Part shown: positions 18,485 to 58,774 of the stretch, one piece after another
Position numbering within the stretch: the first letter of the stretch is position 1
Layout: each line of letters starts with the position of its first letter
NCBI GenBank assembly: GCA_024305405.1
Contig: JAKNDB010000103.1
Location: forward strand, 2,108,001-2,172,000
DNA length: 64,000 bases
Reading direction: 5' to 3'
Source: Dirofilaria immitis
Taxonomy: Eukaryota; Nematoda; Chromadorea; Rhabditida; Onchocercidae
Notes under the pieces: generated by a model
The model's database searches: none
What the model saw: the letters and a program-made list of their open reading frames with translations, nothing else
What the model was told of the DNA's origin: nothing
Program-made: the position numbers and the translations under genes

Positions 18485-21400
18485 ATGCTTGCTGTTGACA
18501 GTATTCGACGATTCCATCTGTTGAGATTTGAAGGCATTCATAATTGCAAGGCACTTTATTGCAGCACATCCGCAACACAGCTTGATTTACCAAAACCAAG
18601 TCCAACAAGTAAACTTGCAGCATTCAGAAAGGTAAACTTTTGTTAAAATCCAGATTACAAAGATTTTTAGATAAAACGCTTCTTTTTATCAGCATTAATT
18701 TTTTGTATGGAATGCATCATAGGGTACTGGCGGTCGCTGCAGTTTTTCCGGCAATGTAGTAACCGTATTCGGTTGCACTGGATTGTTGGGTAAATTATTA
18801 ATAAATCGACTTGCTAAAGAAGGACATCAAATTATTTTGCCAAGTCGACAAGAACCCTATTATACCCGATACCTGAGAGTTCGTTTCCTCTTTTGAATTA
18901 TTTTGTTGGTAAAAGTGTTGCTAAAAACAAACGTATTTTATTATTTTTTGCCACTCTTCTGTTTTTTCTAGAAAACAAAATGTTATTTATTCATATTTAT
19001 GTGAAATTTTCAAAATTAAGAGCAATTTAAATAGTTTAGATATATGGAGAACTTGGTCAAGTGTTGTTATTACCATTTCAATTAAAAGATGAGGAAAGTA
19101 TCCGACAGGCTGTTAGATATAGCAATGTAGTTGTGAATTTAATCGGTACAAGATGCGAAACGAAAAACTATTCATTTGAAGAGACTCATGTTGAAGGAGC
19201 GCGACGAATTGCTCGGATTTGCAAAGAAATGGGAATTCAAAAGTCAGTTATCACAAAAATTAATTCTGAAATTTCATATTTAAGTTGTATTAAATATTAG
19301 TAAGAAATCTTAAAGGAGTCACCTAATAGGAATTTGAATAATACTACTTTTTTCAGATTCATTCACATGTCGGCAATGAATGCCTCTAAGGATACTCCAC
19401 CAACATTGTTCAATAAACCATCACAATTTCTTCGCACCAAAGGACTTGGCGAAGAAGTTGTCCGTGAGGAATTTCCAAGCGCTACCATTATAAGGTATAT
19501 TTATTATCCATACTTTTTTGTGACTTATTGGAAAAATATTTCTCTTACTGAAATTCTATTGACACTAACAAGGAATGAAAACGAATATGAAATTACTGTT
19601 TATGGTGCTTGTATTAAAATATCCTACATATTTAAGTATCACATTCGCATGTCATTTATTCATTTACGTCAAAAGCTAAAAAATTGATCAATTTAGATTA
19701 GGTTTAGTGATTTTTCACATAAGCGAAATTTTAGACCATCAATGATGTACGGAGGAAACTATGATGTATTCATTAACTATTTTTGGCAATTCATCGCATT
19801 CCGCATAGAAGCGCAATTTACGTGTACAAGAAAGGAGAGCATACATACAAAATGCCCATTTGGGTAATGTTACTAAACTTTTTTTCAAATCAAACAAATT
19901 TTTCAATGCTATAGCTGTATTTTCTGCAAGAATTTTAATGTAGTACTAAATAGAAGTCATGTCCTATTATTATTTTTGTTTAGCATGCAAAAAATATTTC
20001 GACCCATCGCACGGTTCTGTATAGTAATTAGGAATTCTGGTATGACCAAGATGAAATGGCATTTGTTGTTAATCATATAGCAAATACAATATCTGATTAG
20101 TAAGAAATAAACATCTGTTTATGTTTCGAAAATAACAGGTGAATCAGGAATAAATATTTTTATAGCGGCAACATAAATTCAATAGTTACCGAATTTAAAA
20201 AAAATTATAGCAGTTTTTAAGATATGATATTTTAGTTTGATTTTTTCACTTCTTTATTGTTTAACTAATCATTTATATTTCTTGACAGATGCTAACGATA
20301 CTGGTTACAGGTGGGTGATGTATCAAAAGGCGTTGAGAGAACTATCGTGGATCCACATGTTATTGGTAAAACATACGAATTTGTTGGACCACATTGTTAT
20401 AAACTTTCTGAATTAATTGACTATATGTATGATCGGGCTCATTTGTCATCACGTTTCCCGCACCGACGATATCGCCGTCGGAATCTAAATTATTTATATA
20501 GGTGATTTAAATTACTCATACGGGAATTATCATATTGCCGTATAGATTAGCAATGATTAGTAATCTTTTCGCTTTTGCTTACACTATTTCTTAAACACAA
20601 TGATGCATAAAAACTTTAAATATATTAGAAAAAAATATTTCTGCATGTTGTCTTTTATAAATAATTTAGAAAATAGTCAAGTTTAGATGATTTAGAAAAT
20701 TGGGATGGTGCTATAAATAGCATAAGGAAAGATTTGCAGGAAGTATATCGCTGCTTAATTCAGATAATACTGCACTTTACGATTACATATGAAAGCTAAC
20801 CGGTTGTTAATAAGTGATGTTTAAATGAGAGATTGCTAAATAATTATAATGTATATTTATTACAGGGCATATGTAGCAGCCCTTGAGTTACCTTACAAGC
20901 TCTTCCGTAATCCGCCACCGCTTAGTTTGGAATGGATCCGAGTGGTTGAATGCACAAATGATGTGCTTACCGGATGTCCAACGTTACAAGATCTCAGGAT
21001 TACTCGACTCGTTGAATTCGAGTTAACAGGTGGAAAACACGCATATTTGTAAGTTACCACATCAAATATTATTTGTGGAAAACATATTTATCATGCTCAA
21101 TATTTTTTCACTGAAATAGTTTTCTTACTCTATTAGATATTGCTGATTGTTTTTGCATTAATATTGAGCACATTACAGCATCAATTTAGTTTTAATTGTT
21201 CATTTGGTCCTTCTCTAAGAGACTGATATTTATACTTTATCTATGAAAATACTACTTATATGTTATCTGTGCATCGATTTCTGCACTTATACTCTGTGTT
21301 GGTTTTAATTATGAAATCAGTTAATTAAAGCTAAGAATGGCTTGCAACTATCTACTTTTTAATGAATTTTCATCAATTTTTTTGTTTTGCTATATGTCTC

Positions 21401-21610
21401 ATTGTTTTTAGACACTGTTTTCGTGTTGTTTATTAATAAAAAATCCGCTAATATTTTTTTCTTCGTTTCAGCTGTGTAAATCATTACAATGAGCCAGACG
21501 TCACGGAACCATATCCACTGCCGCTTCGATCTCGACCTTTATATGCAAATGGAAAACAAAGTGATGAAATCGTTACTGAATCAAAGCCATTTACCATGGG
21601 TACCGCATAA
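18485..21610 (+). CDS. NDUFA9: NADH dehydrogenase (ubiquinone) 1 alpha subcomplex subunit 9
   Basis: Accessory 39-kDa subunit of mitochondrial complex I, an atypical short-chain dehydrogenase fold that binds NADPH. Eight exons: 18485-18631, 18723-18878, 19040-19242, 19357-19494, 19735-19863, 20311-20501, 20866-21048, 21472-21610; about 428 aa. Exon 1 encodes a basic presequence ([15 protein letters not shown]). Exon 2 has the Rossmann loop [12 protein letters not shown]. Further family signatures are [36 protein letters not shown] and VGDVSKGV. Exon 5 is 129 nt where 130 are required: [17 protein letters not shown] is read in one frame and [20 protein letters not shown] in another. The break is at the T run 19780-19784, where one more T restores the family alignment ([12 protein letters not shown]). 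I regard this as a sequence error. Confidence 0.95.
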
Positions 21611-23170
21611 TGTTGTTGTTGATGGCATTATCTCTACATGCCTTGGATGATAGCTACTGATTTAATCAGTGATTTAATAGATTATTGTCTTTCATTATAA
21701 TTGTCGATAGTGAAGCCAATATATAAATGACTGATGCGACGATAAGTCGTCGTGAACATTTTTCCTCGGAGTTCATATCGAAAAATTCCCCGACGTAATA
21801 TCAGAGCATTTAGGAAGAAAATGCTGAAATTTCGATTATTGATTTGGTATCTGTAAATTAGGTATAACATATTTTTTTCCTTCTCATCAAAGTAACCTTT
21901 TTTTATTCTCGTTAAATTGCTTGATTTCATATATACTTTCATAGATCCACTTAATGCCTTCGATGTTTCAGCTTAGATGTTTAGAAGTATTGGGCAGCTT
22001 ATAGTTACTGTTGTGCTTGATAATGTGTATATTGAAGAAAAAGTCACTCCTGCATTTGAACTTAATAAATTTTTCCTTTTATGTTTCACTTTCCGTGTCT
22101 CGTATGTGATATGTAATAATCCATTTTCTTATCCTTCCATCTGATTTAATTGTTGTTTTGTCTTTTTACTGAACAATTTCCGATTAATAAAACAGGAATG
22201 AATCCTAAACGTTGACTGTTGCTTCAATCACAAGTGTCGTCGACAACGCATAGAATGTTGATTAAAATGGATTTTGTCTAACACCAAAAGATATGCTTGA
22301 AGAAAATTCATCGATATCACTCAAGTTTGTTGTTTCTTGTATGTCGTAAAAACTGGAGCCAACTACTTTAGTCTTATTTTTAGTTCAAAACTGCTGTAAT
22401 AATTATATATCTCGACTTACATTCTAGCTTTCTCCGTAATTATCTTTTTTTTGTATAACAATGATTCTAGAATATTGCGCCGTGTATTTCCAAGTTTTAA
22501 ATCTTACAGGTCTTCCTGATCTATCGGTAGGGAATTTTTAATAATTACCCTTAAAATCTTTTCTAATAAAAGCATGTAAAGTTCTCGATGAGTCAAAGCC
22601 GTCCTGTTATGTTTTTCTGTTAATTTAGTTTTTAATATATATTAGTTTTTTCGATTTTCATGATTGCATTTTGTTATAATTTTATCAAGAAGTATTCATC
22701 GTTTCGTTCCTTACTGTCTAATTTCTGACAGTTTCAGGAATGGTTATGATATTCGAACCCATTATCAATATCCGTAGTACGTCTAATTGAAATAGTTCTA
22801 AAGGCGATAGCGATACCAAACTGCATGAGCAAACGGAAATCTCCATCAAGCTATACAATGAATCGGTAGTTTATGTTATTTGTTGTATTTTTCATCGATT
22901 TACCATTTCGACTTCTGCAATTTTTTTGCATGAAAATTAATATATTGAGTGCGATGTTTTTAGTTTGTTTAAATCTTCTGAAGTTATGTGTGATCAAAAC
23001 TTGACCATGACTATGTTAAAGCCACCATGATATTACTTGAATTTAGAAACCAATTGCAAAATAACAAGTGTGCAATTTCTATAAGATGAAATTTTAGGCT
23101 GCAAAAAATAATTCAACCTATCGCTTTCTATTGAAAGGTATCAAACAAAACGATAATTTTTCGGTCAATA
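21611..23170. other. NDUFA9 3' UTR and intergenic
   Basis: Contains AATAAA at 22064-22069, a possible polyadenylation signal. A minus-strand open frame at 21682-21942 has no support. No further gene seen. Confidence 0.5.
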
Positions 23171-23178
23171 CTTTCCAG
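23171..23178 (+). promoter_or_regulatory. Candidate trans-splice acceptor of ccpp-1
   Basis: CTTTCCAG is followed by AAC and then the ATG at 23182, leaving a three-base 5' UTR typical of trans-spliced nematode messages. Confidence 0.55.
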
Positions 23179-23181
23179 AAC

Positions 23182-26100
23182 ATGAGTAGTCGGTCCAGTA
23201 ATGAATATTTAGTCAAATTGTTAAAGGCTATTGAGGTTAGTGATTTTTTATTTGTTCGGAAGAAAATAGACTTTTATATTAATTCTTAATGAGGAGGTCG
23301 AAATTATAGAGCTAATTTATACTTTTTTTTTGGTACTCCGGATACATTATTTCATCATTTTCACATATCCCTTTTTTTCCTACCATTTTTTAATTGTTTA
23401 TTGATTCACTGCTTTTACAAATTTATTCATTTATGAAACTCATTCGTCTCACATATTTTAGTGCAGCAGTTTTGCAATTCATTGACATTTTAATGCAAGT
23501 AGTGCTTGAATTCAAATTATTAAGTTTCTCACCGCATTTAAATTTGTTTATAGTTTAGGACATCTGGAAATTTTTCCCTTTAATGAGAGCATCGGATAAG
23601 AGAATAAAACTTTTTGGAGGTGAAGTATTGCTGAAAAAAATAACACTAGAAAATATTAATTCCAATCAAGTAGTATTACTTTTCAACAGACTGATTTTTT
23701 GCAATAAGTGTGTATTAAAATCGAGGTATGTTTGTATTTCAAAATTATTCGAAGAATTATATTTGAATAGAAATCTGAATTTTACTTTTTATTTTATCAG
23801 CTATATAGTATTTTTCTTTAGGTATGTCGCAATGAATTAACAACATCGTTCTTTTGTCGACTTCTTTTAGGTTTCATCACTTGCTGTAAACCTTCGGGTT
23901 TGTTTTTTTACTTACGTTGTGGGCATCAAGTCATTCTTGTATTACGAAACATTTACAGTTGCAGTACTAAATTTATCTGCATTCCTCTCTGCTATCCTTT
24001 TTATCATACCCGTGAAATATTATATCTTATGAAATCTCCAAGATCTTAAATCCCTTTGTGTACCTCAAGATCGAAATTCTGATACAGATTTAGTTTTTTC
24101 AAGTACTATGAGGTGTAATTTCGACTACTGCATCAGAATACCAATATAAATTTAATATATGGAATTAAAATTTTACTACCAATTTTGAAGATTCTTAATC
24201 TTCATTTTTTCTGTTAGCGCAAAAAAGTTTATCCCGGTTTGTATTCTGTTTTCTGCATATATTCATTGAAAATTTCTAATTTCCTAAGATACATTTTATC
24301 CAAAAATTTTATTGCTTGTACTCGGAGACATTTATTTGAATTTGTTTTAGCATCACTAGTACGTCAGCATCGCATAATACGTTTGGATGGAACAAATTCA
24401 CTCATTAGATGTTTTGTGTCATATATTGCGAATTTAGTACATTGTAGCAGTATTGATATGCTTTGTTCCCTTCTGATCATGTTGTATGTTAGAGGTATGC
24501 AAATTGTGATTGTCTCGAAAGATAAAATAATTATACAAGTTTGTTGTTTCTTCAAGTTAAAATAAAAGCGATACTAGTGTTTTTAACATATATGTAATTA
24601 TTTTTGCAGACAAGAAATTTTGCCTGAAAGTTCGTTTAGATGGTTTGATTACGCTATTCCAAAAAAACATATTGTTGCTTGCTGAGGACAAGAAAATGAT
24701 ATCGGTTTTGCAATTATGCTGCTGTTGTATCCGTTCGGGTAGATTTTCATTTATCATTTAACGATTGAAATCATTAAAATAATTCTTAAATATGCTAAAG
24801 CAAATGGTCATATCTTGCAACAGATTCATCAATTCATTTTTGTTGAATTTATTTTATTTTTGTTTCGAAATTCAATATCATTATGGATTGCTGAAAAACA
24901 GTACCTAAAATAACAGTTTGAAAATTGGATTACTGGCACTTTTTCTTATAAATTGTACAACTACAAAGAGATCGATACACAATACAGTCTTATGCCAGTT
25001 ATATTTTGCAGCTATCAAATTTGAAATAATTTAAAAGTAATAAAAAGAGCAACTAGAAGAAATGGAAAAAAAACCTGAAATTAAAAGTCATTTTAAATGT
25101 GATAGTTCAGTCCAAAATGCGCGGATGTTTGGCAAAAGTCAAGAATTTATAAAGGGTTTAATAACAGCAATTATTTCTGGTACGGAAAGCAATAATCGTG
25201 GCTCGTCTTTCCGAAATACTTTATGTGATCATCAAATTTAGTATATATTTTTATTTCATTATTAATTTATTTTTTCAAACTTCCAATTACTATATTAATT
25301 TAACATTGGGAAGAAAATTTTCCAAGTTAATTATTTTCTTCTGCCTAATTATATCAATAATTATTGCACTGTGAAATTTTTCTAGCTAAGAAGAAGGCAT
25401 GGCATATGTGTCTTATAAATGCACATTTTATTTATCAATCTGTAATGTAAATATGATTAATTTCTTTCCATTCTATTTTCATATAGAAATATAACATTAC
25501 TAATTTAAAAGAATAATTTTCAGAAAATCGCCTCATAATGACTATATTGGAATCGAATAACATTTTTGTTATATTAATAGAAACTTTTCAAAAATATGTT
25601 CAACAGCGATTCACTGCATCTGAACAGGGATATCTTGGAAATTTGCTTGTTTACAGTTGCATCATTGAGAAATTTAATAAAATTAAGTAATTGTGTTTTG
25701 CAATTTCTATTAAATATTTGGAGTTTTTATATTGAAGATTTAGATAAATCGAGATTAGTATATCCATCTGAATTTTAAATTTTAGAATTAAAAAAATTTT
25801 TTTCGAGTTTTGTTTTTAATATGAGAGGAATTATAAATGAATTATAAATGTTGGTAATATTAAAGTTTAGAGCGTAATAGAGAGCACCTAATAGCTATTG
25901 GCGCAGTGGAAACGTTTAATTCAGCTATTTCACTCATTAATAATGATAAGGAGTATTTGGATGATGGCTCATCAGTGGAATCATCTGTTATGATTCTTAA
26001 GGTTATTCAAGCAGTTCAATTCTATTTCAAACTCTTAAATTTTTTCAAATATTTCAGATATTTAATTGATTTTATGAATTTAATAATTAATTTAACAACT

Positions 26101-29100
26101 ATTCTATCTAGTTTTTTAACTTCCCAACAATCACGATCTTGCTCACAATCAAAACTCTGATCTCATTTCTCTTCAAAATTCAGTTGTTATTCTCGAGGAA
26201 GTTGCCATATTTCCTAACCAGCAAGGCTGATAAGTTTGATTGCTACTTGATACCAGAATTTGCAAAAAAATTATCTTTCCCAACTGCAGTTGTGTTTATT
26301 CACTAAATTTTATCAAGACTGATAAATATTGGTATGATGATAGAAAATGAAGTTGTAACTTTTAATTGAATTTGATTTGATCAAAAGAAAAGTAAATTTC
26401 CAATTTTTTCTAAATGCTAACTCTGCTGTATGCTTTGTTTGTCCCTGAATTTCCCAAATCTCGCAGATGCTAAGTATAATATACTGATGATTGCATAGTT
26501 ATACGTCAAATATTTCCAAATCAGTCTTATCTGATGGATATTCATAATATCAATTGTAAAAACACTTTTTACTAATTGATATCTAATATCTCATTATTTA
26601 AAATATAGGATATCTTCAAATCATAAAGTATGATGAATAGGATTAAACATCATCAAGAATAATTTTAATCATAAATTTAGGAATATTTGTTCAAGATAAA
26701 TTCTTTTATAAATTCAAGGTTCCTTTCCAAGTACTTTCTTTCGACTGCTTATATCTATTTTCTTTGTTGTGAATTGAACAGTTACGGGAAATCAAAGTGT
26801 TTTGCGGTCAAACAATTAAATTATCATATCTAAGTTCACTGACTGTTTGAAAAATTTCCAATCTATTATAATTAATATTTTATTTTTAAAAAATTTTTAG
26901 TTTGAAAGAATTAGATGATAAAAAGTTCTCAATTTGTTTTAATTTGTTTGAATCACATTTTTCGTAATTTTTTAAGATATAATCAGATAACTGCATTGGA
27001 AAAGAAAGATTTTTAGAATAGCAAATTTTAAGAGTTTTTCTTCATAATTTTGGATTTGAAAATTTATGATGAATTTAATTCATGCTTTATGAGTACGATG
27101 TATCTGTGGCCTTACAGTGGTAAAAACAGAAGTTCTCTAATCGTTTTACTAGGATCCTAAAACTTTTATGAATTTTCTCCCATATTTGTATCATTAAAAA
27201 AAAAAAAGAATATTGGAAAAGGGAATTATTTTATTATCCTCAATCAAGTTTATTATTCATATATCAAAGAATCTGTTCTTTAACTTAAGTGGATAAAACA
27301 AGTGTGGGAAAATTGTTCATTTATATTTCTGTTCATACGTGTTTTGTTAATCTCGTATCATTACTGTTAATTAATAATGATAATTAGTTGGGAAAAAGCC
27401 TTTATTAGCTATTGTAGTGATTTTTGCTAAATTACTTTAGAATGATTAAATTTTTCCTTTCTTCTAGGATCTTGAATTCTTCAATTTTTGATTTCCTGTT
27501 ATGGAATAGTTTGATTAAAAATGAGGATACATTTCTTCTCTTTCCCGGAAATATCATTATAGATATCTTGTATCTTGTGATCGTATAATATTTATTGCTC
27601 TTCTTTTTAATAAATAGTTACTGGACGGATTATTCAACTGATTTCCTAACATTTTTGGTACATAAACTTATTTTATATATTTATAATTCTTAATAAAAGA
27701 ATCGTCTTTTCTTTCATCTCTCGGTAATTCAATGAAGTTCTTATTTGATTGTCATCATTCATTATCATTCCCTGGTCAGATAAGAAACTTGAATTACGGA
27801 GAAGCAGAAATTCTCCCGCTATTCTTACAATGAAACTACTTTATCATTTATATTTAACTTTTAACGAAATTTGATTTTCAACTCCGCCTACCACTTAGAT
27901 CTTATGATCAATGCAATAAAATTTTAAAATTTAGATACGCGAATGTGTTCATGTTGTTGTTCTTACTGATATCATTGTGTCTATCATATGAGTTTGTGTG
28001 TGAGATTCATTTAAAATTGATAAAATATTTTGAAATTAATTGCTTCTACTAATTTATCGATTAATTGAAGGTAGATCATTCTATCAATTAATCAAGTAAT
28101 TAGAAATTGGCCACCCAAGTGTTTCACATGCTAAAATCATTCTTTAGTTTTTTCTTTCCTTTTTCATCTTTTTATTAGTTATAAATAAATGCAGATATTT
28201 ATAGATAGAATATATATAATTATATATAATAGCAATGGTTATAAAGGATGCAGTAGTTCATCTTGCAAATACATTTTCATTTCATTTTTCATCACAATAT
28301 ATTTATTAATAAAATTTCTTTTAAATAATGCTTCGAAATATTAGGAACCATATCTTATTCACTCTTCCTTTCCTCTTCATTTCATTCGAATTTATCTTCT
28401 GATATAATATAATTGTTACAAAAAAGAAAATTTAATTTAACCTAAATTTTAAGTTTCAAAAACTCGAAATCATATCTGATTTGTTGGATGTTACCTATTT
28501 TTCAAATCAATTCATGAAAGTTTGATAATTTCATCGATTGATATTGTTAAATAAATTTTTAAATATTTCAGAAATCATTACTTGCACTGTGCATGAGTTG
28601 CCTACCTCTTCACCCATTCCCAATATCCTCATCCACGCCACCACCAATTACTTTCCCACTTCCTAGAGAAATTTGCAGTAATTTAGAGCAACAATCTTCT
28701 TGGTATGTTTATTAGATGTGCTCATAAAATATCACATAGATTTGTGATTTATCAAATATTTTAAATTTGTTTTAAAAATTAGCTCTATTAGTATTTATCA
28801 GTAATTCTTTCGCTCATCTTAGGTCGCATAGAAAAAAGTTGAAGAAAATTTGTTATATATTTCACCAACAAGAATCGATGAACCTGGTCCGAGTAGCGGT
28901 ATGCTTCAAATTTTTTTTTAAAAACAAGTTCATCAAATAGAAAAATTATTTGAAAATACTGTATTGTGAGATTTACGAAAACGATAAAATGGATTCTTAT
29001 CGAAGTTAGTAGTTATCAGTTATAATCACGTCAAAAACAGCTGGCGGATACTTATTCAACTTCAAAAAATTGTTATTGATGTTTAGATTTTAAAATTCTA

Positions 29101-32100
29101 GAAATACGAAAGTTTGATTTAGAGATTTGATTCAGAAATTTTTTGAGATATATAATGTCAATAGCCCGAAGTGTCTGAATGATCTAATTAAGTAATTTGA
29201 AAAAGATTAACATTCTTTCTCTCATTGTTATTCACAATTATTTAATCAGGAAAATATGCAGACTAAATTAATGTAAATACTAAAAATAATCTGACTTGTA
29301 TTAAATCCAATTTCTGGTTTACTATCTTTAAAGATAATTATCCGTCACTGCGGATTATGAAAAAGTTTTCAATGCGATAAAACTAACCATAGTATATTGA
29401 AATAAAAATTAGGTTTAATTTGCAAGGCTCGATGTAATTGTAAACCGTATATAGTTCCATTAATATAAGTATTTGAATTATTAATATTAGAATGAGTTTT
29501 AGAACTCAAACATTAATATTTAGATGCAGGGGTTTTAATTTTAATGCAACATTTTAATTGCATGGAATAAATCATGCTAAACATGCACAATTTATTATAG
29601 ATGAAGATGCTGGTGATGATGAAGATGAAGCATTGTTTGCAGTAACAGTAGATGGTGACATTGAAGAGGATAATTCACATTTGCATCCAATATCTGTGAA
29701 CTTTCATCAACATCTATCTTTACATCAGCTAACGGACAACTATTTACATTATTTCATTGAATTTTTCCAAGGAACTACCATGATTGATACATCCTCAATG
29801 ACAACATCTTCGGATAAGTCAGGAATGGGAAGTTTCGCCGATTTGGTGGCAAAAACTGTAAAAGCAAGTATTGTGACTAATTCATTTGATTGACTTTTGT
29901 TTCAGATTTCTTATTGTAGATTGATGCTAGTTATACTAACTTTAAATTTAGTATTACTATTTTAATTTCCATTTGAAATTATTAATAAAATACATGTGTA
30001 AGTAATTTATATTTGAATATATAGTTATTATGTTAATGAATTGCAGAAGATAAGATCACCGTTAGTTTTCGTAAAAATTGCTTATCCAACAACAATCCTT
30101 CCAACAAATTTACATTCTGTTTTGCAACCATTGGTAAAAAACGATTCAAAACGGTATGAAATAAACTAAGAGTTAATATTCCTAAAAATTAGAATTGTTT
30201 AATTTAGTTAATTTTTTTCTTCCATTTCTTTAAATTAATTCCATGAGTATTTTCAATTAAATTGATGATCAACTTTTGAATTAAACTAGTTCTCAGGCTT
30301 AATTCCGTAGTGCCATTAATTAATTTTTCGCCGTTATATTTGGAACTGGTTTAAAAAAATGATAAATTCTTTCTTATGCAATGAATTTTATCTTTGAAGG
30401 ATTTATTGATAAGAGATATAGCACACTTGCAAAGTGATTCATCATTTTCTGCTCGTGTTGTATACGACTTGGATTATCTGATTTCCGATAAAACTCAAAT
30501 TCCTGCATCCTGGAAAACAATTGGAAACGATGATGAGAATCGGTATTGTCCAAAAATTAAACTTTCTAGAGTTTTTGAATGAAACTTTCAGAATTTTCTA
30601 GAAAGTGTGCTACTGATATTTAAGTGAAGTATTATTTTAGAGTACACTATGAAATTAGGTTATGAATATTTATATTCTATAAGCTGATATTGTTTGTAAT
30701 TTCTTGCTTTTTGTTCTAATGCACAGCATAATGTATGACTTGGAAGGATATAGAGTACTTCAAATAATTGACAAACAATATAACATTGAAATGCTAATAT
30801 TTTTTCATTCTAGGATTGGCAAAATGGATTCCAAGAATCATTTGTTATTCGAGAGCCGATTTGAAGGTGGAAATTTGAGGCGAGCCATCCAAGTATTATT
30901 TCAAGTATCTAAATAACGTAATATTGTTTCTTTTTATTTCTAAAACAGGCTTCTTCAGAATTACCGTTTTAGGTAAATAAATGGTATTATCAGTTGATAC
31001 TATCACCAGACATCAACGAGTTACGACCACACTTTCAGTGGTTCTTTTTCGAAGTTTCCAATAATGAAACTGGCGTGGATTATGTGTTTGAAATTATTAA
31101 TTGCTTTAAAAAACATCAATGTTTAATCGTGGTAATGATTTATCTCAAATCATATAAGGTCACTTATGTTTTAAAAGATATTTTTTCGATGAAATTTTGC
31201 TGTAAATAAATATTTCTTCAAGGAATAAAAACTGTTTATTTTAAACGATTTTATCGTACCAGCAGAAACATTATGATCTACAACAAAAATTTGATTTCCG
31301 AAAAATAAAATTATTTGTTATCTCATTAATAAAGCAAAAGTGATTGTGAATAATTCAAAAACACAGTGTGTTTGCAGGTATGCAGCCAGTATTGTTCTCA
31401 GTCACAGATGCTTGTCGAGGAATCCTAAATGGGTACGTGTAGGTTCAGCAGTATGTTATTGTCGCAATACTTTTATTCGCAATGATTCTAAGAAAATGAA
31501 TGATGCATCTACTCCAAGGTATTTCGATTGTCAAATTTTTTTTGGAGTATTTACCTTCGAAATAATTTTCTACCGCCATTATAACTATTTTGAAATGAAA
31601 ACGCAATAGTGCTAGTAAAACAATTCCAAAAATTCATGATAAGTTTATGCAATAAAATTATCACATACCATCATATTATGCAAACATTCTCATTTTTCAA
31701 AATTTCAACATTATTATTATTATTATATAACATTCTAGTATCATAAATCTTAAATTTTCAGATTTTGTCATACTAATAATTATAAAATATTCATAATTTC
31801 AAAAGAGGAATAAATATAACTCTATGGAAAGAAAATAATTTACCTCAATTCATATAAATATCCAATTTTCCAGGTATTATTTCTCGCTATATTTCACGAT
31901 CAGATTTAAATATCATGCGGATGTATGCTACATTGCCTATCATTTTCCATACACATATTCGATGCTTCAAGTAGTTTGTTTTGTACCTTTGAATTTGAAA
32001 ATGCTATAATGGTAATTCGCAATGTAGATGTTGAAACAGAGCAGGCTGATTTTATAAATTAGATAATCAAATATTTATTAGATGGCCAAGTAATACATGC

Positions 32101-34625
32101 TAAAAGCAGAGAATCTAAACGCGGAAACGGCTATTTCATATTCTGTTATCTTTTATCAGTCACATGAATCATCACGTGATGTAAGTATAACCTAAATATA
32201 AAAAATCATCAATATGAAATGAGTTGATTTATGAATGAAAAACCGAAGAATTGTTTTTAACTAAAATCTTAAATGGAGAAGAGGACTTTTTAGAATGCTT
32301 TTATTTTTAAAAAATATTAAAGCATTTCTAATTAATACTTTATTAAAGAAATTCTCAAAAACGATTTAATATTTGATTGTAATTAATTTTCACATCTTAA
32401 ATTTTTTTAACCTTGAAATCTATGAACTAGTAAATATGAAAACTATTCAGAAAAGAATACATATGTAGCAATAAATATATATATATATAGGGATAAATTA
32501 TGGTATTGCTATGGTGATATTATAGAATACTTAACATATAGTTAATAAAATTTTGTGTATTAAGATATATCTAGTAGCAAGTGCATTATTAACAATTACT
32601 GCCTAAGCATTAAAATTAGTGAGAATTATAGATATCGTAAATCATTGTGAGTGGTCTTGCCTATTACTGTAAATTCTTGTAAATGTTTTAGGCCACCTTA
32701 GAAAGGTATTTATCGAAAAATGGCAAGGAAGGACAAATTTATGTTCGTAATGATCAGCTCTGTACATCATTAGCTGGTAATACCGTATCACTCATTACGG
32801 TAACCGCTAATGGTACCAAAGAACAGTTATTTGATCGTGAGATCATATTGCTTTCTGCTAGAGTACATCCTGGAGAAAATAATACAAGTTGGATTATGCA
32901 TGGTATATTTTTATATGTTCATAAATATTAGGCTAATTTAAAAATAAAATAAGGATAACAAATTAAAGTGATGAAATTAGATATGAAAAATTTTTAAGCA
33001 TCTTTTTAGATTCTTTCTCTTCTTATGAAAAAATAATTCGAACTATATTTTATGTCTTGGATACTATATCCGAGATAATTGGAAGTAATTTTTTTGCTTT
33101 TATATCTTATTCATTCTTTGTTTTATAAATACAAAGATGAATAGGCTAACCGAGATGCTAAACAATAATGGAAAATTTCACTAACCGATTGAAATGATTT
33201 TAGCATTTTTAATCGAATGATAAATATGAGACATAAGCAAAACTTAAATTAAAAATTCATTGTAAATATCGGAAACCTTTCATTATTTATAATGAACTAT
33301 AAATAATTAAGTTGATTTTTTATAACAAAAATTTTTAAGGTATTATGGATTTCTTGATGAGTGATACGGAGGAAGCTATGGAACTTCGTGATCGGTTCGT
33401 ATTTAAATTAATTCCTATGTTAAATGTCGATGGTGTAGTAAATGGATCACATCGCTGCAGTTTAGCTGGTGTAGATTTAAATCGAACCTGGGATAAACCT
33501 TCACGATTACTGCATCCTGCTATTTATCATAGTAAAGCTATTATACAGTATATAGTAGGTTTTGTTTTTTTGTATGCAGAATTGCATATAGCTTGCATGC
33601 AAGGTTCATAAATCTGTTCATATCAGATTTTTGAATAATTCGTAAACGTAATTTTTTGAGGTGAAAATGTCTTGATCTCCAATAATTCTCCAATAATTTG
33701 CTTATATTTAAGAAGTTTATGATAGACAAGCATTGGTTAATTTTTAACATTATAGAATAGTTGTATTTTTGAAAATCTTTCTATTACATGAGAAAGGTGA
33801 AGATATACAAATTTCAGATTGATGTGCTTGAAAAGAAACCATTTTTGTTTATCGATATACATGGTCATTCCAAAATTTTAATTTATTTCTTTATGGAAAT
33901 AATCCTGATAACTCTTGGCGTGCTTTGGATCATTCACTTCCAGGAAAAAACCATTTCATGTCACTTCCATTACTTTTGCAGCAGGTATATACCTAGATTA
34001 ATTTATCAGGTGGAAAAGATATATTCAGCATTATTCGAATAAGTAAATTAGAGATTAATTTTTTTATGCATGGAAAACTTTAAATGTACACAGTTTTTTC
34101 CAGACATGCGATTATTTTTCGCTATCAAATTGTCGATTCAACATAACAAAAACGAAAGAATCATCAGGTCGCATTACACTATGGAGGCAATTTGGTATCA
34201 CTCGATCGTACACTTTAGAGTCTACTTATTGTGGTTTCAATTGCGGTTCTTTGAAGGGTTATCAGGTTGGTGCTTTCGTACAAAGCTCTTTAAAAGTCTG
34301 TAATACACTGAAGATACTACTTCCTATGGCAGATTATTTTATTTAATTTCACTGGTAAAATTTGCTTACCATTTAGTTATGTATTTTCAGTAATGAAAGA
34401 GAAGAAACATATTAAATTCTTTATGTGTTAAAATGAGTTCGAATTTTATATCTCATGTAATGTTATATATATATTCAAAATAAGAGTAGAGTTTTGCTTT
34501 ATTTTTAGGTAAATATCGAACATCTAATGGATATGGGTAAACAGCTGTGCAAGACATTTAGCTATTTGAAGAATGATAACCCCTCTGATCAGCAAGAGGA
34601 TGATGATGATGACGATTCAGAGTAA
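23182..34625 (+). CDS. ccpp-1: Cytosolic carboxypeptidase 1 (CCP1/Nna1), tubulin deglutamylase
   Basis: M14-family metallopeptidase that shortens polyglutamate side chains on tubulin, needed for cilia and axon stability. Twenty exons: 23182-23235, 23559-23725, 24289-24494, 24610-24738, 25524-25686, 25871-26001, 28572-28702, 28823-28898, 29601-29857, 30047-30133, 30400-30542, 30814-30892, 30973-31131, 31378-31518, 31874-31970, 32692-32902, 33340-33554, 33818-33984, 34104-34265, 34509-34625; about 964 aa. N-terminal armadillo-like helices (exons 1-6), acidic linker (exon 9), CCP N-domain (FESRFEGGNLRRAIQ, FQWFFFEVSN), then the catalytic domain: ARVHPGENNTSW (Zn His and Glu), NGSHRCSLAGVDLNRTW, DIHGHS (third Zn ligand), SYTLESTYCG (catalytic Glu). 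The tail is DDDDDDSE. Frame breaks of one base occur in exons 5, 8, 13, 14 and 18, each in a short A or T run. The NPDG motif reads NVDG. The exon 10 donor is uncertain. Confidence 0.95.
26002..28571 (+). other. Large ccpp-1 intron
   Basis: The 2.57-kb intron between armadillo exon 6 (ends ...SSVMILK) and exon 7 (KSLLALCMSC). No nested gene, repeat array or structured RNA was recognised in it. A missed small exon cannot be excluded, but phases agree without one. Confidence 0.6.
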
Positions 34626-40063: not shown

Positions 40064-40106
<43 letters not shown>

Positions 40107-46994: not shown

Positions 46995-48450
46995 CTAAGA
47001 GGTAGCCTCTTGTTCTGCAGTTTTGTTAAATACTTTATAAGCTGTTTCATTCATCAGTTCTTTCAATTCATTTGCATCCTTCACTTTCAATTTGTATAAC
47101 CAACCTAAAATTATATTGCTCTTTATTAAAGTTCCATTATATTGATGTAATGACCAAGAAGTTATTTTTCATTAGACAGCATGATTTCCTCAATCAGCAA
47201 CTGGTTGCGGAAAAGATAATTTGAAACAGAAATTAAAGTTAGTAAAGATAGATTAATAAATTTTATATTGAATAAGCTTTCTTTAAACTATGTTCACATT
47301 TCTTTGTTGTCCGCTGCAAAAATAAACCTTACGTAGATGCAAAGTGATTCCTTATCTTTTAGTATTAAGGAAACTTGAAAATATAGTACAACCAATTTTT
47401 TACTATTTAACCATTTTCTTATTAATATGAAAACAGAAATATTTATTTCAAGACTGAAACGATTTTCATTGACTGCATTTGGAAGATTAAGACATACCTT
47501 TATCAAGAGCAAACTTATTGATCAGAGATGGAGTATTTTCGACTTCAATGTTCTTTTCTATAACAATTCCAGAAATTGGTGAATAGACATCTGATGCTGC
47601 TTTTACACTTTCCACTGCTCCAACTGAATCACCTGCATGCAATTCTTTTCCAACTTCAGGCAGTTCTGCATAAACAATATCACCAAGTGCTGCCTGAAAA
47701 CAACTTTCCTACCACTTTAAAAAGAACGTGTTTTTCAAATATGGATAAAATTTAGAAGTAAATTTATTAAATAACATAACTAATAGAACAACATAAAATT
47801 AAATGTATGAATATGTGATGAAGAGGAAGAGATTCCAAATATATGAAGACATTTTAATTGTTCAAAAGTACTATTCGACAAGACCTCTTTTAAAATCTCA
47901 TATAGCATCAATTCAATCAATTAGAATTAATTTGCGGAATCCATCTATCAGAAGTAATAAACCTGCGCAAAATCAGTGATTCCAATAATTGCTGTATTAC
48001 CTTCGATGACCACCCATTCATGCTTCTTTGTATAATACCGATCTGTAAATATTCTTTCAAAAGTGATTTATTTACTTATAGCTCTATTTTACAAAATTAT
48101 ACTCAAAATAATTAAAACTGCTTATATTTTTAATATTAAATGTAACTTGTAATACAATCTTATATAAAAAATTTTCTCCAGATAATGGTTATGATACAAC
48201 ATTAAGCAAATGATAACTTTATCAATTAATGGATTAAATTATACCTTTGAAAGAGTTAAAATTGCCTAATTTTAGTGTCACTGATGAGTTCTAAATACTC
48301 AATTGAAGTAATTTTAAAAGTAATTCGTAGCATACCGACATATAAGCGTTGCGATATAGCAATAGTGCGATGAATTGGAATGAGCAGTGATTTTGATGTG
48401 ATAACAAATGGAGAAAGTCTTTGAATTGCTTGTATCCAACACGTTACCAT
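46995..48450 (-). CDS. GCSH: Glycine cleavage system H protein, mitochondrial
   Basis: Lipoyl-carrying shuttle of the mitochondrial glycine cleavage system. Exons: 48336-48450, 47963-48042, 47498-47693, 46995-47105. Exon 1 is a basic presequence ([20 protein letters not shown]). Exon 2 has [20 protein letters not shown]. Exon 3 has [12 protein letters not shown] and the lipoylation site [15 protein letters not shown] with its acceptor Lys. Exon 4 gives [16 protein letters not shown]. Exon 4 is 111 nt where 110 are needed: the family's conserved DxGWL reads with an extra base in the C/G run at 47100-47102, after which frame and family match resume to a TAG stop. I treat this as an insertion error. 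The ATG at 48450 sits 13 bases after a TGTTTCAG acceptor. Confidence 0.95.
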
Positions 48451-48463
48451 ACCTATCAAATAT

Positions 48464-48472
48464 CTGAAACAA
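48464..48472 (-). promoter_or_regulatory. Candidate trans-splice acceptor of GCSH
   Basis: Minus-strand TTGTTTCAG lies 13 bases upstream of the first in-frame ATG, with no upstream exon evident. Confidence 0.5.
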
Positions 48473-50008: not shown

Positions 50009-52113
50009 ATGAATAATCGAATAGGTAGGTATAGCATTTTTGTTATTTTTAATGAGAAAAAGTTACAGATTTAATCATTTTCTTTTGATAATTAAACAGT
50101 TATTATTTATTTTGAGAAAATTAAAAATAGCATAAAAATATTTCTTTCTAAATTTGCATTATAAATACTAAATTAACTGTTTACCACTTGTAAAATATTT
50201 ATAAAATTTATCAAAGCGCATAGATAGAAAGAAAACAAATTTTCATTTCTTGTCAATTTCATTTTCAGAATTGATGAAATTGGCATATCCACTTTAACTA
50301 ATTAATTCCGCTTTAAAACTTTACTGCATTAAAAAAATAAAAAATGAACATTGAAGTTCTAGGCGTGACGTAATATGCATATCTAATTCATTATTAATAT
50401 CATAAACTTATAATACAGAAAATCTCTAGTTTTTTTATTTAAGCAGATTGGTTTATCGGCAGTGTTCTTGGTATATTACATTCATTTCTTGTAAATCATG
50501 TGTACAAAATTGTGCCGGAACCTTATATGGATGAAATTTTTCATACCGATCAAGCACGACGTTTTTGTGCATTAAATTTCACGTTAGTTTACGACTTTTA
50601 TTTGATAATTACTTGCTTTATTAGTAATGAGAGAGTATTATTCTATTCTAATGCTATAATTTTAAAAGATCTCTCAAAAGATATATAAAGATGTATAATT
50701 TTTATAGATAGATTATGCAAATAATGGAGAAATATTTCCTGAAAAAAGATAAGGATAGAAATAATAGAGTATATCTGTTCAATTTAAGTCTTTTAGTGAG
50801 GAAAACTTCAAGTTAACTTTTACAATGATTATAATTAATTGATTCCATAATAATTTATATATATTCGGATTAAAATGAATTTGGATGGATAACTATTTAT
50901 TCAACAGCTGTATAATTTCATTGAAATTGATTACAGTAATTCTTTTTATTTCTTATTCATTTAAAGAGATTTTTAACTCATATCATTACAATTCCAGATG
51001 GAACCCGAAAATTACAACGCCACCAGCTTTGTACTTACTTTCATTACCATTTTTTGTGGTTATGAAAGATATACGAATTCTGCTTTGATTCCATTTGCTT
51101 TTGTTGGTTGTATTAAGTTCCGACAACTTTTTCAGAAACCTGTATCCAAGTTAAATTCTCGATATCTGGAATTTATACTAAGTTCTCTAATTGTCCTATT
51201 GCTTCCTGTACTGTTTCATTCTTCACTTCTATATTATACGGATTTATTATCATTAACAACACTTCTATGGGCTGTTTCCTTCAACCATGTATACTATCCT
51301 CTTTTATTTTCGCTATTTCTATATGCACCCGACAAACAAATATCATTTGGGCAGCTGTTTATGGTTTAACTCATTTGTTTATTTTATTTAAAAAATTAAG
51401 CAAAGGCAACTTATCAATAGTGGTGCTTATTAGGAGCTTGCTACAGCTTTGGTCATTAATAGTGTTACCCGTTGGTTTTATTATCTTTTTCATATTGAAC
51501 GGCAATAGCATAGTGCTTGGTGACCGTTTAGCTCATAGACCAGTAGCCCATTTCATGCAACTTTGTTATTTTTGATTTTTCTGTGTTTCAGTTCAGCACC
51601 TTTATTGGTATTCTCTACCAGAACTTATCAATGTCCAAGTTATGTCATTCGTAAGCCTGTTAAATTATTGATTTTGTGCCTAATTTTTACTTGTTGTGTT
51701 TATTTTTCACATTAGAACATCCATATCTGCTGGCTGACAATCGTCACTTCACCTTTTATGTCTGGAGACGATGGTTTTTACGTCATCCGTATTGTAAATA
51801 TGTTACTATAGTCATTTATATCATAGCACTTCAGTTATTTCGCCAAATGATAGAGCATATTCCGAGGGTCCTTAGTTTACTGTATATTTTGGGAACAGCA
51901 GCAGTGTTAGTACCAGCATATCTGCTGGAACCAAGATATTTTATTGTACCTTACATCTTTTGGCGCCTTAGCTATCCAGAACGACGAATTTTAATACTTA
52001 TTATCGAATTAATCTATGAGCTCTTTATAAATGTTGTCGTTTTGTATATGTTCCTGTATAGGCCATTCGAATGGTCGCATGAACCAGGTATTAAACAGAG
52101 ATTCATGTGGTAG
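50009..52113 (+). CDS. ALG10: Dolichyl-P-Glc alpha-1,2-glucosyltransferase ALG10
   Basis: Adds the terminal glucose to the dolichol-linked N-glycan precursor in the ER lumen. Four exons: 50009-50024, 50447-50582, 50998-51650, 51716-52113; about 401 aa. Exon 1 encodes only MNNRI plus one base; its phase fits exon 2. Signatures: VPEPYMDEIFHTDQARRFC (acidic donor/metal motif), WNPKITTPPALYLLS, RQTNIIWAAVYG, NGNSIVLGDRLAH, YLLADNRHFTFYVWRRWF, and the family's C-terminal QRFMW. Many hydrophobic helices throughout. Exon 3 needs three extra bases: after the T run 51050-51055, near 51283-51292 between SFNH and ILSSFIF, and in the T run 51569-51573. With them the exon length agrees with both flanking intron phases. 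Convergent with sqv-5. Confidence 0.93.
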
Positions 52114-52976
52114 AATTGTATAAAAAAGTGATCTAAGAGAATTTTTTCACTTTCTTTATGTTTAGTGTTAATAAGGCGGCTCTTGAGAATCACAACATTA
52201 TTCGTTGTTGCCGTTATATTCGTTCATAAACAATAATTTATTTACGGTTTTGAATTTTTTATTAAATTTTTTAAGTGAATTGTTGGAATAGCTCGCAATA
52301 TATTGTCCAAGTATTATTTAATAATAATACAGACTTACAACAAGATATATATATTTTTTTAGCAAAAAATAGGTTGAAAATTGAAAAATTCATTGCAATT
52401 TTGTTCTTTAAAACTATTTGTAATGTAGTAATCTACAGATGATGTAAATACGAATGAACGTATTATCTATTTATCATTTAAGATCTATGTATGTTTCTCA
52501 ATTTAATTATATTATTTTAATATTTTTGTCATTGTCGTAAGTCTGGATTAGAACAAGATCCAGTAAATTATTATCATGCACAATAGTTATAATGGTATAC
52601 AACTTTGTGCATGTGCATTGCTTTTAAAAATTTGTTAACAAACAAAAACAACAACTGATATGATAGGCAGTTAAAAGTGAGCAGCAGTGATCAAAATAAA
52701 TTATAAAATTCAAAATAAGCTCAAGTTAGATCAATTGAAAGTGAGAATAAACAAAGTATTAGATTAGATGCGATATATTTGCTTTGCAGTAAATTAATTA
52801 TTAAATCATTTCATGTCATATATTCAGAGGTCAACTTAAAAAAAAAAAAGATTAATTGAAATGATTGATTTTTGAGTGCCATATTAAAAAATCAATTATT
52901 TTAATTGAATAATTTTGAACGAAAATATAAATTTCAGATTTACTTTTAATTATGATAACCTAAAGTTGAGCAAATG
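52114..52976. other. Convergent intergenic region ALG10-sqv-5
   Basis: 3' flanks of two convergent genes. A+T-rich, no gene seen. Confidence 0.6.
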
Positions 52977-54875
52977 TCAAGAATATACAGGAAATTGGTC
53001 AACTAGAGAATCTAGTGATGCTAAACTTGCCGCTTTTGAGCCGATACACATATTATATTGCTTTTCCGGAAGTGATTCAGCACAATGCATAGTATGGTAG
53101 ATGTGAACAAGACCTGGATCCGGTGCACGCATTATATGTAACGGTGAATGAACACATTTCTCGAAGAAATCTACATCTTCCATACCCCATCCCTAAACGA
53201 TACTTTATTTTGAATTTATCGCGCGAAGGAATATATTTGTTTGATATTAAGAATCTGATGTTGATGTTTTTCTAAAGTTTTTGGAAAAAGAAAAATTATC
53301 CAAATTTATGAGTAACAAACAAACTTATCTTTGATTTATATTTCGTTGTGTACTGAAAATAGTGCTATCTTACCTGTATATTCAAATTCATGCCTCCAAT
53401 GAGATCTAAATCAGATTTATAAATAGATACCAATCCAAATCCGAAATGTCGAAAATAACCCCTTTTTCGACCATAATGAAATGCATCGGAAAATAATCGA
53501 TCGCTATCCGACCATGTTTCCGGTGAATATTCACTAAATACTATCGGAAAATATACCTAAAAGATAAAATCTGCTTGGTTTTCCTAAATTATCGATCAGA
53601 AATTTCGACTCTTCATTATTTAAAAATAATAAATAAAAAACATACTAAACTAATTTACCTGAGCACCACGTACGGTATTGCGTATAACCCGATCAAGAGT
53701 ATCACAAGTAAAAAGAATATCAACATCAATAAAAAACATCAAGTCATCCGGTCCTAGAATATCAGCACCGCGGAAAGTGCAACACCACGACTGAATGGTT
53801 GCGAACCCATATTAATCACCTAGAAATTCAAAGAAATACAGTAACAAAAATATAAAATTAATTTTTTTGTCACTACTATAATCGATATAAATGTTTTTTT
53901 TTATTGGCCATATTTCCAAATTCGATTCATCATTTTAAAAAGGCCTAGTAATTTTTAAAATAATATCACACTTGTATCTATTTTAATACTATTATAATAT
54001 TAGATACATCAGTAGCTATTAAATATTAGATATATCAAATATTTCGAGCAAATTTTCAAAATGGATTTTTAGAAGATTTTCTAGCTAAAAAAGATGAAAT
54101 GTACGGATACAATTTTCAGATATTTTTAGGAAATGAACTATCAACTAGAAAAATGCTGCAACTGACTAATTTTAAATTTTAAACTGATAATGCCAAGAAG
54201 AATGATCGACCAACCGTAACATCAATTTCCAATTTAAGCTTATCAATCAATGCTGCAATTACTGCATCCATATCAGACATCGAATCATAAATTACCAGAA
54301 TAAGTGAAAATATTCGTCTGTTAACACATACAGTTCTCAGATTATTTGCAAACCTATAATATCTGATAATACATTATCATGCGATCAATGCTATCAATAA
54401 TTTACTGATCTTTAATTACATTCTTCAATTATCAGATGTTAAAATGATATAAAATATCCTTCTTTACTTATCCACTGAGATTAGAGAAAGATTTATAAAT
54501 TTTTCGAGACCAAAATAGGTTAAAAGTAATGAAGAAAATTTTTTAAAACGGCTTTATTCGTATTCTTGATGATGTCTTGCTAAATTATATAAAAGAAAAT
54601 CAACCTTTTAAATGAATCAACTCTTCCAACAAGTGGCAATATTAAATGAACATGAAACTTTTCCGACGGTAATTTCATCCGTTGCCAATCAAAACCTTTT
54701 GATTTATTTCCTTCCTTCCATAAACGAATATTTTTAGCGATACGTTGACGTAAAGTATCACGAAAAAAACTATCTGATATAATCTCCAATGATCCGAATG
54801 TTTGCTGAACATATGCATGACGACGAACAGAAAGTGTTGCTCTATTAAATATAATAATATATATATATATATAAT

Positions 54876-54920
<45 letters not shown>

Positions 54921-57900
54921 ATTTGTATCATCTATTATTTATTCATAGATCGAATAATATCGATCGATATTTTGACACTTTCAATCTTATAATATTAATT
55001 ATTTATAGAAAAAGATTAACTTATGAGGTGGTCGAATCTTTTTGAACCATAAAACCATATCAAGAACATAATCAACACCATGACGTGGTTCAACTCTCAT
55101 ATAACCATAATGAATGTTTTGAAATCGTAGTACACGACCACGTTCTCGAGCATTTGCATTAAATTCATCGAAAAGCTATAAATTATCATATTTAAAATAA
55201 TAAAAAGGATTGATATTCATACAAATTAACGAATGAGATAATTGCAATAGTACTAAGAGCGATAATGCTGATAATGATAATAAATATTGATAATAACTGA
55301 GACAAAGATGATAATGATAATGATAATATAATAACAGTAATAACCTGTATGATAATTTCATTTAGTGCCATTCGTATACTTAAATCAACTGTATGCCTCG
55401 GGCAGTTTACTTGTCCAGCACAAAATAAAATATTATCAGATGAAATAAAATCCCAATGGATGAGATCATGAGTTGAATTTGCAATATGACGTGTAAGTGA
55501 TGGTACTTTTGATTTAGCAATTCATTCCGTAATGTAACATGTCTAGAACGTAATTTAGCAAGTCGAAGGATACGATTGTGAACATGAATTCGACGCATTG
55601 TTGATGGTTGCTTGACTGGATGAAGCGTGATGGCATGACGTAACTCCGTTAAACTACCTTGATAAGCATTTGGTACCGTTTGATTATTATGAAATAATGT
55701 TTGCATTTCGTAATTCCATGTACACGTAACACCGACATGCTTTCGGATACATCTAAATAATAAAATGATATATTCTAAATACGATCTCAAGAAATCAATA
55801 TCTTATATTATTCATTATTCATGTTTTTGTATTATTCATGTTCTCGTATTATTCATGTTCTCGTATTATATATGTTCTCGTATTATTCATGTTCTCGCAT
55901 TATTCACGTTCACGTATTTATCTCGAATTTCCCGATTTACTTTTGCAATGAGAAAAAATAAAACTTTCTTAAAAATAAATTATGCTAAAATTATATTCAT
56001 TAAAATAACAAGAGTGAAATATTATTATTACTACATCGAACGGATTAATTTGATTGACTAATTGATAAACTTATTGATAATTTATGATCTTATCGATAAT
56101 TTACAGTATCATGCAAAACTATAAATAGTACCTTCCGAGTTCGACATCTTCATGCGTAGTGAACATTTCCATCAAGCAGGAACGCAAATGTGGAGCAACA
56201 AGACGTAAAGTCATTTGGGACATTACAATACCTGGTCCACCCATGCAATAATTATCATCTTGACCAAGAGCTAGTTGACCATATTCGGCTGTGTTACCCA
56301 GTCCAGCTTGGCCAATTAAATGAGCCTTATTCGAATCCAGAGATCTAATACATAAAAATATATAAATTCAGAAACATCACTTTGTACTTATTTGTGATTA
56401 TTCATTATATTTATTTTGATTGTTTGATTTTCAAAAACTCGATAAAGCTTGTGGCTTTTGTGAAATTCAAGATTTCGATCTCGTAATGAGCCTTAAAGCA
56501 GAGATCAAAGGTCATTAAGTTTAGTTACGAAAGAGTTATCGAAGTACTAACCTTAACAATGTTTCTAATTGTTCTCCTCTCACATACAAATCATCGTCTG
56601 CCCTCATAAACCAATCGAAATCGTCTAACTGAAATTTTTTCAGAAAATCAAAAAAGTCTTACGGATTTTGAAGGAAAATCTGAAGGGATATTTAGAATTT
56701 ATGAAATCATTGATTAACTATCTTGTGATATGTTGATAATGTTTGATCAATCTCTCAAACTTTTCAATTTTCCGATATATTGAATAAAGTTGATTTTATC
56801 TTAATCATATAATTCATGGTAATCGATAAAATATTGATGTTAACGGTCTTGATCCATTAAAAAAAATTAACACTGATTTCCTATCCCACTAATGAGTAGC
56901 TTTCGTTTTAACCTAATTAATCAATTATTTGATTAATTAATCATTTCAACGTAAATGTCATTGAATCTTCGGGAAAACTGAAAAATTGAAATACGGGAGA
57001 AAAGGGAATGAATTTTTAGTTGAACAAATTAAGATCAGTTTTTTTCTCTTCTTTTAAATATTTTCTTTTTAATTTGATAAAATTGTTTTTCTTTTGTTAT
57101 CAATCGCCGATCTATGAAATACTTTTTCTCATTTCAAAACAATTTCAATTTCAATTGTTTCTTTTTGATTATTTGCCTTCAATTTCTTCTAAGAAATTTT
57201 TTGAAAAAAAGTGAAATTTCTTCCTTGTGATTTTTTTTTGAAATGAAATCGAAGAAGTAATTTCGTTATGAAAAGAACCATTATGAAAAGGATTAATTTA
57301 ATAAATAATAATTAATCTATTCATTCATCTATCTATAACAGGCAATATTTAAAATTTGATAATACTGATTTTTGAACTTATCTGATTGATCTAATCAATT
57401 TATGTATAAACTAAAATCAAACTGTGATAAGGTTAAATTCACTATGTAATTCGCTATCTAAGCTTAATAAATTTATTTGTTTTTTTCTAATAATTTAAAT
57501 TAGCCAAATATTGAACAAAGATAAAATTAAAAACTAGCATGATGATCAGCCATCCATTTCAACATTACAAATGATTTCTTTTGCGGTGGATATTCATCAG
57601 TAACACCTTTCAAGCGTATCACTGGCATATCACTATGAATTGTTGCTGTTCCTTCGGCTACGAAAAATAGTAACTAAAATTTGAAAGAAAAAAATTCATA
57701 AACATTAAAAAAAGTTTTGCCAAGCTTTAACAATTTTTTTAAATTTAAGAAATTTTCGTCAAAATTATAAAAGATCAAACCTTTCCTGGAATATGTTGTG
57801 CCCAAGTTTTCCATACTTCATAAGCTCTTGTATCCACATATTTTGCTGCTGTCATCACACCAACAAGTAATAATTTAGGCTCTTTATTCTATAAATCATA

Positions 57901-58774
57901 TCTTTAATTATAAATTATTATAAACATATTTAACATAATTGATAGATACAACAGTATTAGCCAACTTAGGTTGAATATTGAAATGAAATACAACAGTATT
58001 AGCCAACTTGGGTTGAATATTGAAACGAAACAGTTATGTATATAAATATGTAATTTAGTTATGCAAATAAAATAAAGGAATTTTTAAAAGTGTATGCGAT
58101 ATTTGCAGATTGATATGCGATAAGCATATTTAAATTTCTGATTGAGTAAATTGTACTCGTTTTTTCTATTCCAAATTTTATATTATTAACTTTTCTGATA
58201 TAATTGTAAGAAATGATAAGTTTATTATTAAATGATATTTCCACTTACTCTTCACATATTTTAGTGAAGTATGGTTATAGTTAATAATGATGAATGATTG
58301 TTAGTCAAATTTCTCTCGAAATACTCGAGATATTTCATTTTCATTAATTATTTTTTAACGAAATGAATCGTTTCTTTTTTATTAAATAAATAATCCAAAG
58401 TAAAGGTAAAAGGATGAATATTGACTCAAAAAATTACTATTATTTTATTTAAAATAACTAAATTTAATTTAAAAGAATTCATTTCGAATAAACGATATTT
58501 TGAATATTCTCGAGAATCATCAAAAATAAAATTGAAAATGGTTAAGAATAAATTAAAAACGAATATTGTTTTGCTAGAAGAGTCATGAATTTTCAAATTT
58601 TGATATAATACATACTTGCATCAAAAGGTTGTTACAAATATCATGTGGTAAACGTCGTACACCTGTAAAGATCAACGTTGCAGATATACCAACAATCATA
58701 CCAAATAGCGTGGGAAAAATAGATCGCGTCATTCGTCGCAATCGTCCCTTTCCTTTACGCCATGTCAATGCCAT
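52977..58774 (-). CDS. sqv-5: Chondroitin synthase (CHSY1 orthologue)
   Basis: Golgi type II enzyme that polymerises chondroitin by alternately adding GlcA and GalNAc. Twelve exons: 58616-58774, 57781-57888, 57535-57673, 56552-56624, 56132-56344, 55345-55752, 55021-55175, 54605-54841, 54215-54353, 53659-53819, 53374-53556, 52977-53192; about 730 aa, close to C. elegans SQV-5. An N-terminal basic stretch and TM anchor ([19 protein letters not shown]) precede [22 protein letters not shown] carries the DDD of the beta-1,3-GlcA transferase domain, followed by [16 protein letters not shown] and [11 protein letters not shown]. The second, GalNAc transferase domain shows [10 protein letters not shown] (DVD), [10 protein letters not shown] and [10 protein letters not shown]. 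The C-terminus has [14 protein letters not shown]. Exons 6 and 10 each lack one base (T run 55513-55515; GG at 53772-53773). Confidence 0.95.
54853..54917 (-). repeat. (TA)n microsatellite in sqv-5 intron 7
   Basis: Two adjacent TA runs interrupted by AACAACA, close to the exon 8 acceptor. They create a spurious Ile-Tyr repeat frame. Confidence 0.85.
55808..55917. repeat. ~18-bp tandem array in sqv-5 intron 5
   Basis: About six units of TTCATGTTCTCGTATTAT with small variants (Tattatatatg, ctcgcattattcacg). It lies just upstream of exon 6 on the minus strand. Minisatellite-like; no coding meaning. Confidence 0.85.
57948..58031. repeat. 42-bp tandem duplication in sqv-5 intron 1
   Basis: Two adjacent copies (57948-57989 and 57990-58031) with three mismatches, both containing ACAACAGTATTAGCCAACTT. 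Confidence 0.85.

Follow-up and report, generated by a model that had tools for sequence, protein, structure and literature searches.

The closest described system is the MinION assembly of the filarial worm B. malayi (Fauver et al. 2019), in which 553,752 indels relative to the reference were reported after Nanopolish; these were attributed to homopolymers, and coding sequences were shorter than in the reference (PMC6925183). The Dirofilaria immitis assembly analysed here, GCA_024305405.1 (ICBAS_JMDir_1.0), resembles it in that both represent a filarial worm sequenced on a single MinION flow cell, with mismatches that are mostly indels. The two differ in that the B. malayi consensus was polished with Nanopolish and its mismatches were measured against a reference, whereas Pilon supplied with raw reads was employed for D. 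immitis, and in that the D. immitis errors have entered deposited proteins. A second parallel is provided by the Kastor cases in bacterial genomes (PMC12007338), where, as here, deletions follow runs, genes mimic pseudogenes and BUSCO understates the damage; D. immitis differs from these in that its genes are intron-rich nematode genes, in which gene finders mask breaks with extra introns. Frame-aware alignment of a 64,000-nucleotide stretch of this assembly (hereafter the window; C63:2108001-2172000) indicates that the broken frames of its genes are almost certainly errors that persisted in the consensus of an assembly made from nanopore reads only, the animal's own genes being intact. As such nanopore errors are well known (PMC6925183, PMC12007338), the breaks in the window are an ordinary artefact and a useful warning, and not a biological feature.

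Provenance of the two D. immitis assemblies

The source assembly was obtained from one Portuguese worm and is described by Gomes-de-Sa et al. (2022) as having been generated from ONT R9.4.1 reads with Guppy 2.3.5, Flye 2.8.3 in --nano-raw mode and Pilon with raw reads, resulting in 110 contigs, 87.9 Mb and an N50 of 3,687,191 bp, with genes predicted by GeneMark-ES (PMC9179477). The assembly methods of that paper make no mention of short reads, and describe an assembly of nanopore reads without short-read correction. GCA_024305405.1 is elsewhere tabulated, with citation of the same source paper, as 86.8 Mb with an N50 of 4,253,153 bp (PMC12693587), while the genome copy analysed here comprises 86.7 Mb in 65 contigs. 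R9.4.1 reads processed with an early Guppy version would be expected to under-count bases systematically, chiefly in A and T runs, and assembly with Flye --nano-raw would retain such under-counts in the consensus. Because the Pilon input consisted of raw reads of the same kind, these errors would also survive polishing. The basecaller, rather than another step of the pipeline, is presumably the origin of each error in the window, and the letters written at the break sites are probably supported by no read.

A D. immitis assembly of approximately 94 Mb was generated from PacBio HiFi and Hi-C data, and its 11,852 genes were annotated with BRAKER3 and RNA-seq, its proteins being predictions from genomic DNA (PMC12562366); a table in PMC12546972 gives, for a D. 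immitis assembly, 94.06 Mb, an N50 of 15,667,105 bp and 11,852 gene models. The D. immitis proteins P0001, P0272 and P0288, which served as references below, would appear to derive from the independent and more accurate HiFi/Hi-C assembly of PMC12562366.

Frame breaks in five genes of the window

Reference proteins were placed on the window by frameshift- and intron-aware alignment, and for ccpp-1 tblastn of ten references was also used. The alignment program for this analysis permits GT-AG introns in all phases with a minimum of 40 bases, and frame changes at a cost; every site was thus judged from the protein frame by alignment to reference proteins, and not from raw data. Seventeen breaks were counted in five genes (NDUFA9, ccpp-1, ceh-8, ALG10 and sqv-5), 15 of them short and two long. 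The first-pass annotation, made from the letters alone, had claimed 13 breaks in six genes: twelve represent real frame changes, four of them with an earlier placement that is off by 2 to about 35 bases, while five further breaks had been overlooked and the sixth gene, GCSH, proved to be intact. The excess of deletions that it had reported is borne out by the revised count.

Comparison with the second assembly, which that annotation had proposed as a check and which was carried out at the level of proteins, not DNA, covers 14 of the 17 breaks, with NDUFA9, ceh-8 and the ALG10 site at 51569 falling outside it. At all 14 the second-assembly protein keeps its frame where the window shifts (nine times in ccpp-1, three in ALG10 and two in sqv-5). 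Identity to these proteins ranges from 99.1 to 99.6% and no stops occur among the matched codons. The alignments of window and CCT genes also contain inserted codons, some with stops, mainly where exons end or where the sequences diverge. No separate NDUFA9 or ceh-8 protein of the second assembly was present among the best 120 of 1459 matches.

The most heavily affected gene is ccpp-1, encoding a cytosolic carboxypeptidase (plus strand, 22738-34622, ends approximate), where alignment of P0001 over 985 codons at 99.1% identity requires nine frame changes. The sequence is one base short at 22754-22758 (alignment) and at 22798-22802 (tblastn and alignment), and one base long at 25185-25191 (tblastn and alignment), all three newly found. 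A second base too many lies at 25622-25628 (alignment); it had been assigned to the A run at 25590-25594, but P0001 is still in the upstream frame through 25590. The breaks claimed in the A runs at 28832-28837, 31108-31113 and 33872-33875 are all frame changes relative to P0001, each one base short, and map to 28830-28840 (alignment), 31108-31115 and 33872-33876 (both tblastn and alignment). The break attributed to a TT at 31412-31413 is likewise genuine and one base short, yet it resides at 31419-31423 (tblastn and alignment). A further probable break, newly found by alignment and also one base short, is situated at an exon/intron border at 30150-30154 (~30152), where the interval step does not localise it. 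The effect on annotation is evident from P0006, the ccpp-1 protein of the source assembly itself, which has 670 residues as compared to 1007 for P0001 and which, aligned by tblastn only, carries wrong-frame residues directly upstream of 31420. Separately, second-assembly protein P0010 fuses a PFKFB-type kinase part (Pfam PF01591) to the C-terminus of ccpp-1 (window 30767-34622). The kinase part is found here at C63:1994227-1998229, approximately 140 kb upstream of ccpp-1 and on the minus strand; owing to this distance and opposite orientation, either P0010 is a chimera produced by gene modelling or the two assemblies are oriented differently here.

In NDUFA9, a complex I subunit (plus strand, 18485-21610), a single break is located at approximately 19778-19791. 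Eight more distant references were aligned: seven require a frame change at 19778-19821, five of the eight placing it at 19778-19785, in agreement with the earlier placement at the T run at 19780-19784, and P0130 requires none. The Rx-type homeobox gene ceh-8 (plus strand, ~37640-41731) is one base short at 40993-40994 according to all three proteins from other filariae (P0122, P0123 and P0125), which confirms the break suspected near 40993-40996.

For ALG10 (plus strand), P0288 aligns over 50009-52497 (325 codons, 99.4% identity) with three frame changes. The first, one base short at 51050-51055, coincides with a T run where a break had been claimed. The second, also one short, lies at 51277-51281, near the start of a stretch that P0288 omits; its existence had been recognised, its position given as about 51283-51292. 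The third is a newly found one-base deletion at 51701-51708. A fourth break, claimed in the T run at 51569-51573 and one base short, is beyond the coverage of P0288 and has the less direct support of profile continuity, as Pfam PF04922 crosses the junction as a single stretch with 177.9 bits, the upstream piece scoring 54 and the short downstream piece giving no match. P0288 omits window positions 51289-51596 despite residues of the ALG10 profile being encoded there, which may reflect a model error or an isoform. A search of the PDB with an ALG10 piece gave no match.

The chondroitin synthase gene sqv-5 (minus strand, 52980-58813) aligns with P0272 over 736 codons at 99.6% identity with two frame changes, and both are also required by the B. 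malayi protein P0339. One base is missing at 53770-53774, as claimed for GG 53772-53773, and another at 55504-55511, a break that had been correctly detected and wrongly assigned to T 55513-55515.

GCSH, encoding the glycine cleavage H protein (minus strand, 46998-48450), aligns with P0129 over its 166 residues without any frame change, all 164 whole codons being identical (100%); the protein encoded in the window is identical to that of the second assembly. The extra base that had been proposed in the C run at 47100-47102 is therefore refuted, a phase-1 intron ending immediately before that run. Elsewhere in the window, a fat storage-inducing transmembrane protein (Pfam FIT, E 1.6e-9) is represented by an exon on the minus strand at 9164-9388.

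Chaperonin genes on other contigs and the spectrum of breaks

CCT subunits are specified by single-copy essential genes. Five of the 12 CCT/Cpn60 regions (L032, L033, L034, L038 and L039), located on five contigs other than that of the window, were used as controls and aligned to proteins of other filariae; L035, L036, L037, L040 and L042 were left out as having no close reference protein. Breaks were encountered in four of the five genes, namely beta (C15, three), theta (C9, two), eta (C18, four) and delta (C26, two), while gamma (C17) had none, so the damage appears to be genome-wide and includes conserved genes. For theta, P0253 requires three frame changes and P0257 two, and two were counted; for delta, P0271 requires two (one a two-base loss) and P0255 one, and two were again counted. 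An exon-by-exon table of PF00118 matches had suggested that the CCT genes were intact, which was overturned by frameshift-aware alignment, as breaks within exons are hidden in such a table. Two other regions, L041 (C10:9535000-9539000) and L043 (C8:12000-17000), hold what look by eye like short GroEL pieces of bacterial type, internal stops being present in one of them, and these may be nuclear Wolbachia insertions; their use as a bacterial, intron-free ruler was abandoned as the surroundings looked nematode-like beyond the fragments.

By the same method, the CCT genes carry 11 breaks in 2666 codons (1.4 per kb) as compared to 16 in 2850 codons (1.9 per kb) for the window (binomial p = 0.45), and with rates this similar the comparison gives no evidence that the window is worse than other parts of the assembly. 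No break is present in CCT gamma over 544 codons or in GCSH over 164 codons. Judged from the genes tested, errors appear to be spread through GCA_024305405.1, conserved coding sequence showing a broken frame some 1.4-1.9 times per kb, and a similar rate would be expected in further genes.

The window and CCT breaks together form a set of 27, from which ALG10 51569 is excluded and in which the ccpp-1 border site is conservatively scored as lying in a run below four. All but two of the 27 are short. Seventeen touch a run of at least four, as compared to an expectation of 3.4 for coding positions drawn at random, and a count of 17 was not attained in any of 5000 random sets; a deletion bias in homopolymers is thus present. 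The remaining ten lie in runs of two or three, from which it follows that homopolymers are not the whole explanation, and the earlier description of the indels as homopolymer events only was too strong.

Competing explanations and the deposited proteins

The first-pass reading of the breaks as uncorrected assembly errors is in agreement with the raw-read ONT provenance, the intact frames of the second assembly, the similar CCT breaks on other contigs and the combined bias towards deletions and runs. As the second assembly is in frame, the CCT genes are likewise broken and runs are over-represented, the breaks resemble consensus errors occurring genome-wide rather than gene decay. That a minority of them, for example those outside runs or those in NDUFA9, ceh-8 and at ALG10 51569, represent genuine alleles carried by the Portuguese worm amid such errors is very improbable.

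It is more doubtful still that the indels are true loss-of-function changes and the five neighbouring genes pseudogenes in this worm or its population. The letters as written do break all five, and private alleles are conceivable where a single worm was sequenced. Such decay is, however, at odds with the uninterrupted second-assembly proteins for the three genes tested (ccpp-1, ALG10 and sqv-5) and with similar breaks in the CCT subunits of four out of five contigs elsewhere, while stop-free matched codons at 99.1-99.6% identity give no sign of relaxed constraint, and a distribution of 25 short to two long, sited in runs, is not that of decaying genes.

To an equal degree it is hardly tenable that the gene models are wrong and that overlooked introns, not breaks, part the frames. 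This is what happened in GCSH, where the claimed break lies directly 3′ of a normal phase-1 intron, it could apply to ccpp-1 at ~30152 on its splice border, and the source assembly's own models evade breaks by extra introns or trimmed exons. At most other sites, however, conserved residues continue over 2-11 bases, which is below intron size, and the references retain the residues flanking both sides of most breaks. Programmed frameshifting or RNA editing that repairs the proteins post-transcription has a practically negligible probability, for although several of the breaks fall within runs of A or T, as slippery sites do, the second-assembly proteins, predicted from genomic DNA, need no frameshift, and we know of no precedent for nine such events within a single gene and eleven across four chaperonin genes.

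The consensus errors have consequences beyond this window, as GCA_024305405.1 has served as a reference for RNA-seq mapping (PMC11144916) and as evidence for annotation of D. asiatica (PMC12546972). Claims of gene loss, targets or domains that are based solely on this assembly need to be rechecked. Among the titles listed in literature searches (5 papers, and 8 of 79), none concerns errors in GCA_024305405.1, and the term 'frameshift' is absent from PMC11144916 and PMC12693587. Deposited D. immitis proteins P0006, P0121, P0262, P0267 and P0270 have segments absent or altered at the breaks. When five of the assembly's own models were aligned, four (P0270, P0121, P0262 and P0267) needed no frame change, as their exons had been trimmed or introns added: P0270 (sqv-5) treats minus-strand positions 55506-55397 as an additional intron and has 673 residues as compared to 743 for P0272, an exon of P0121 (ceh-8) stops at 40996 and not at 41049, and P0262 (CCT beta) and P0267 (CCT delta) have exon borders that differ from those of the filarial references. 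For the fifth, P0248 (CCT theta), the alignment contains two frame changes next to inserts of 27-30 bases, the inserts perhaps representing introns shorter than the 40-base minimum.
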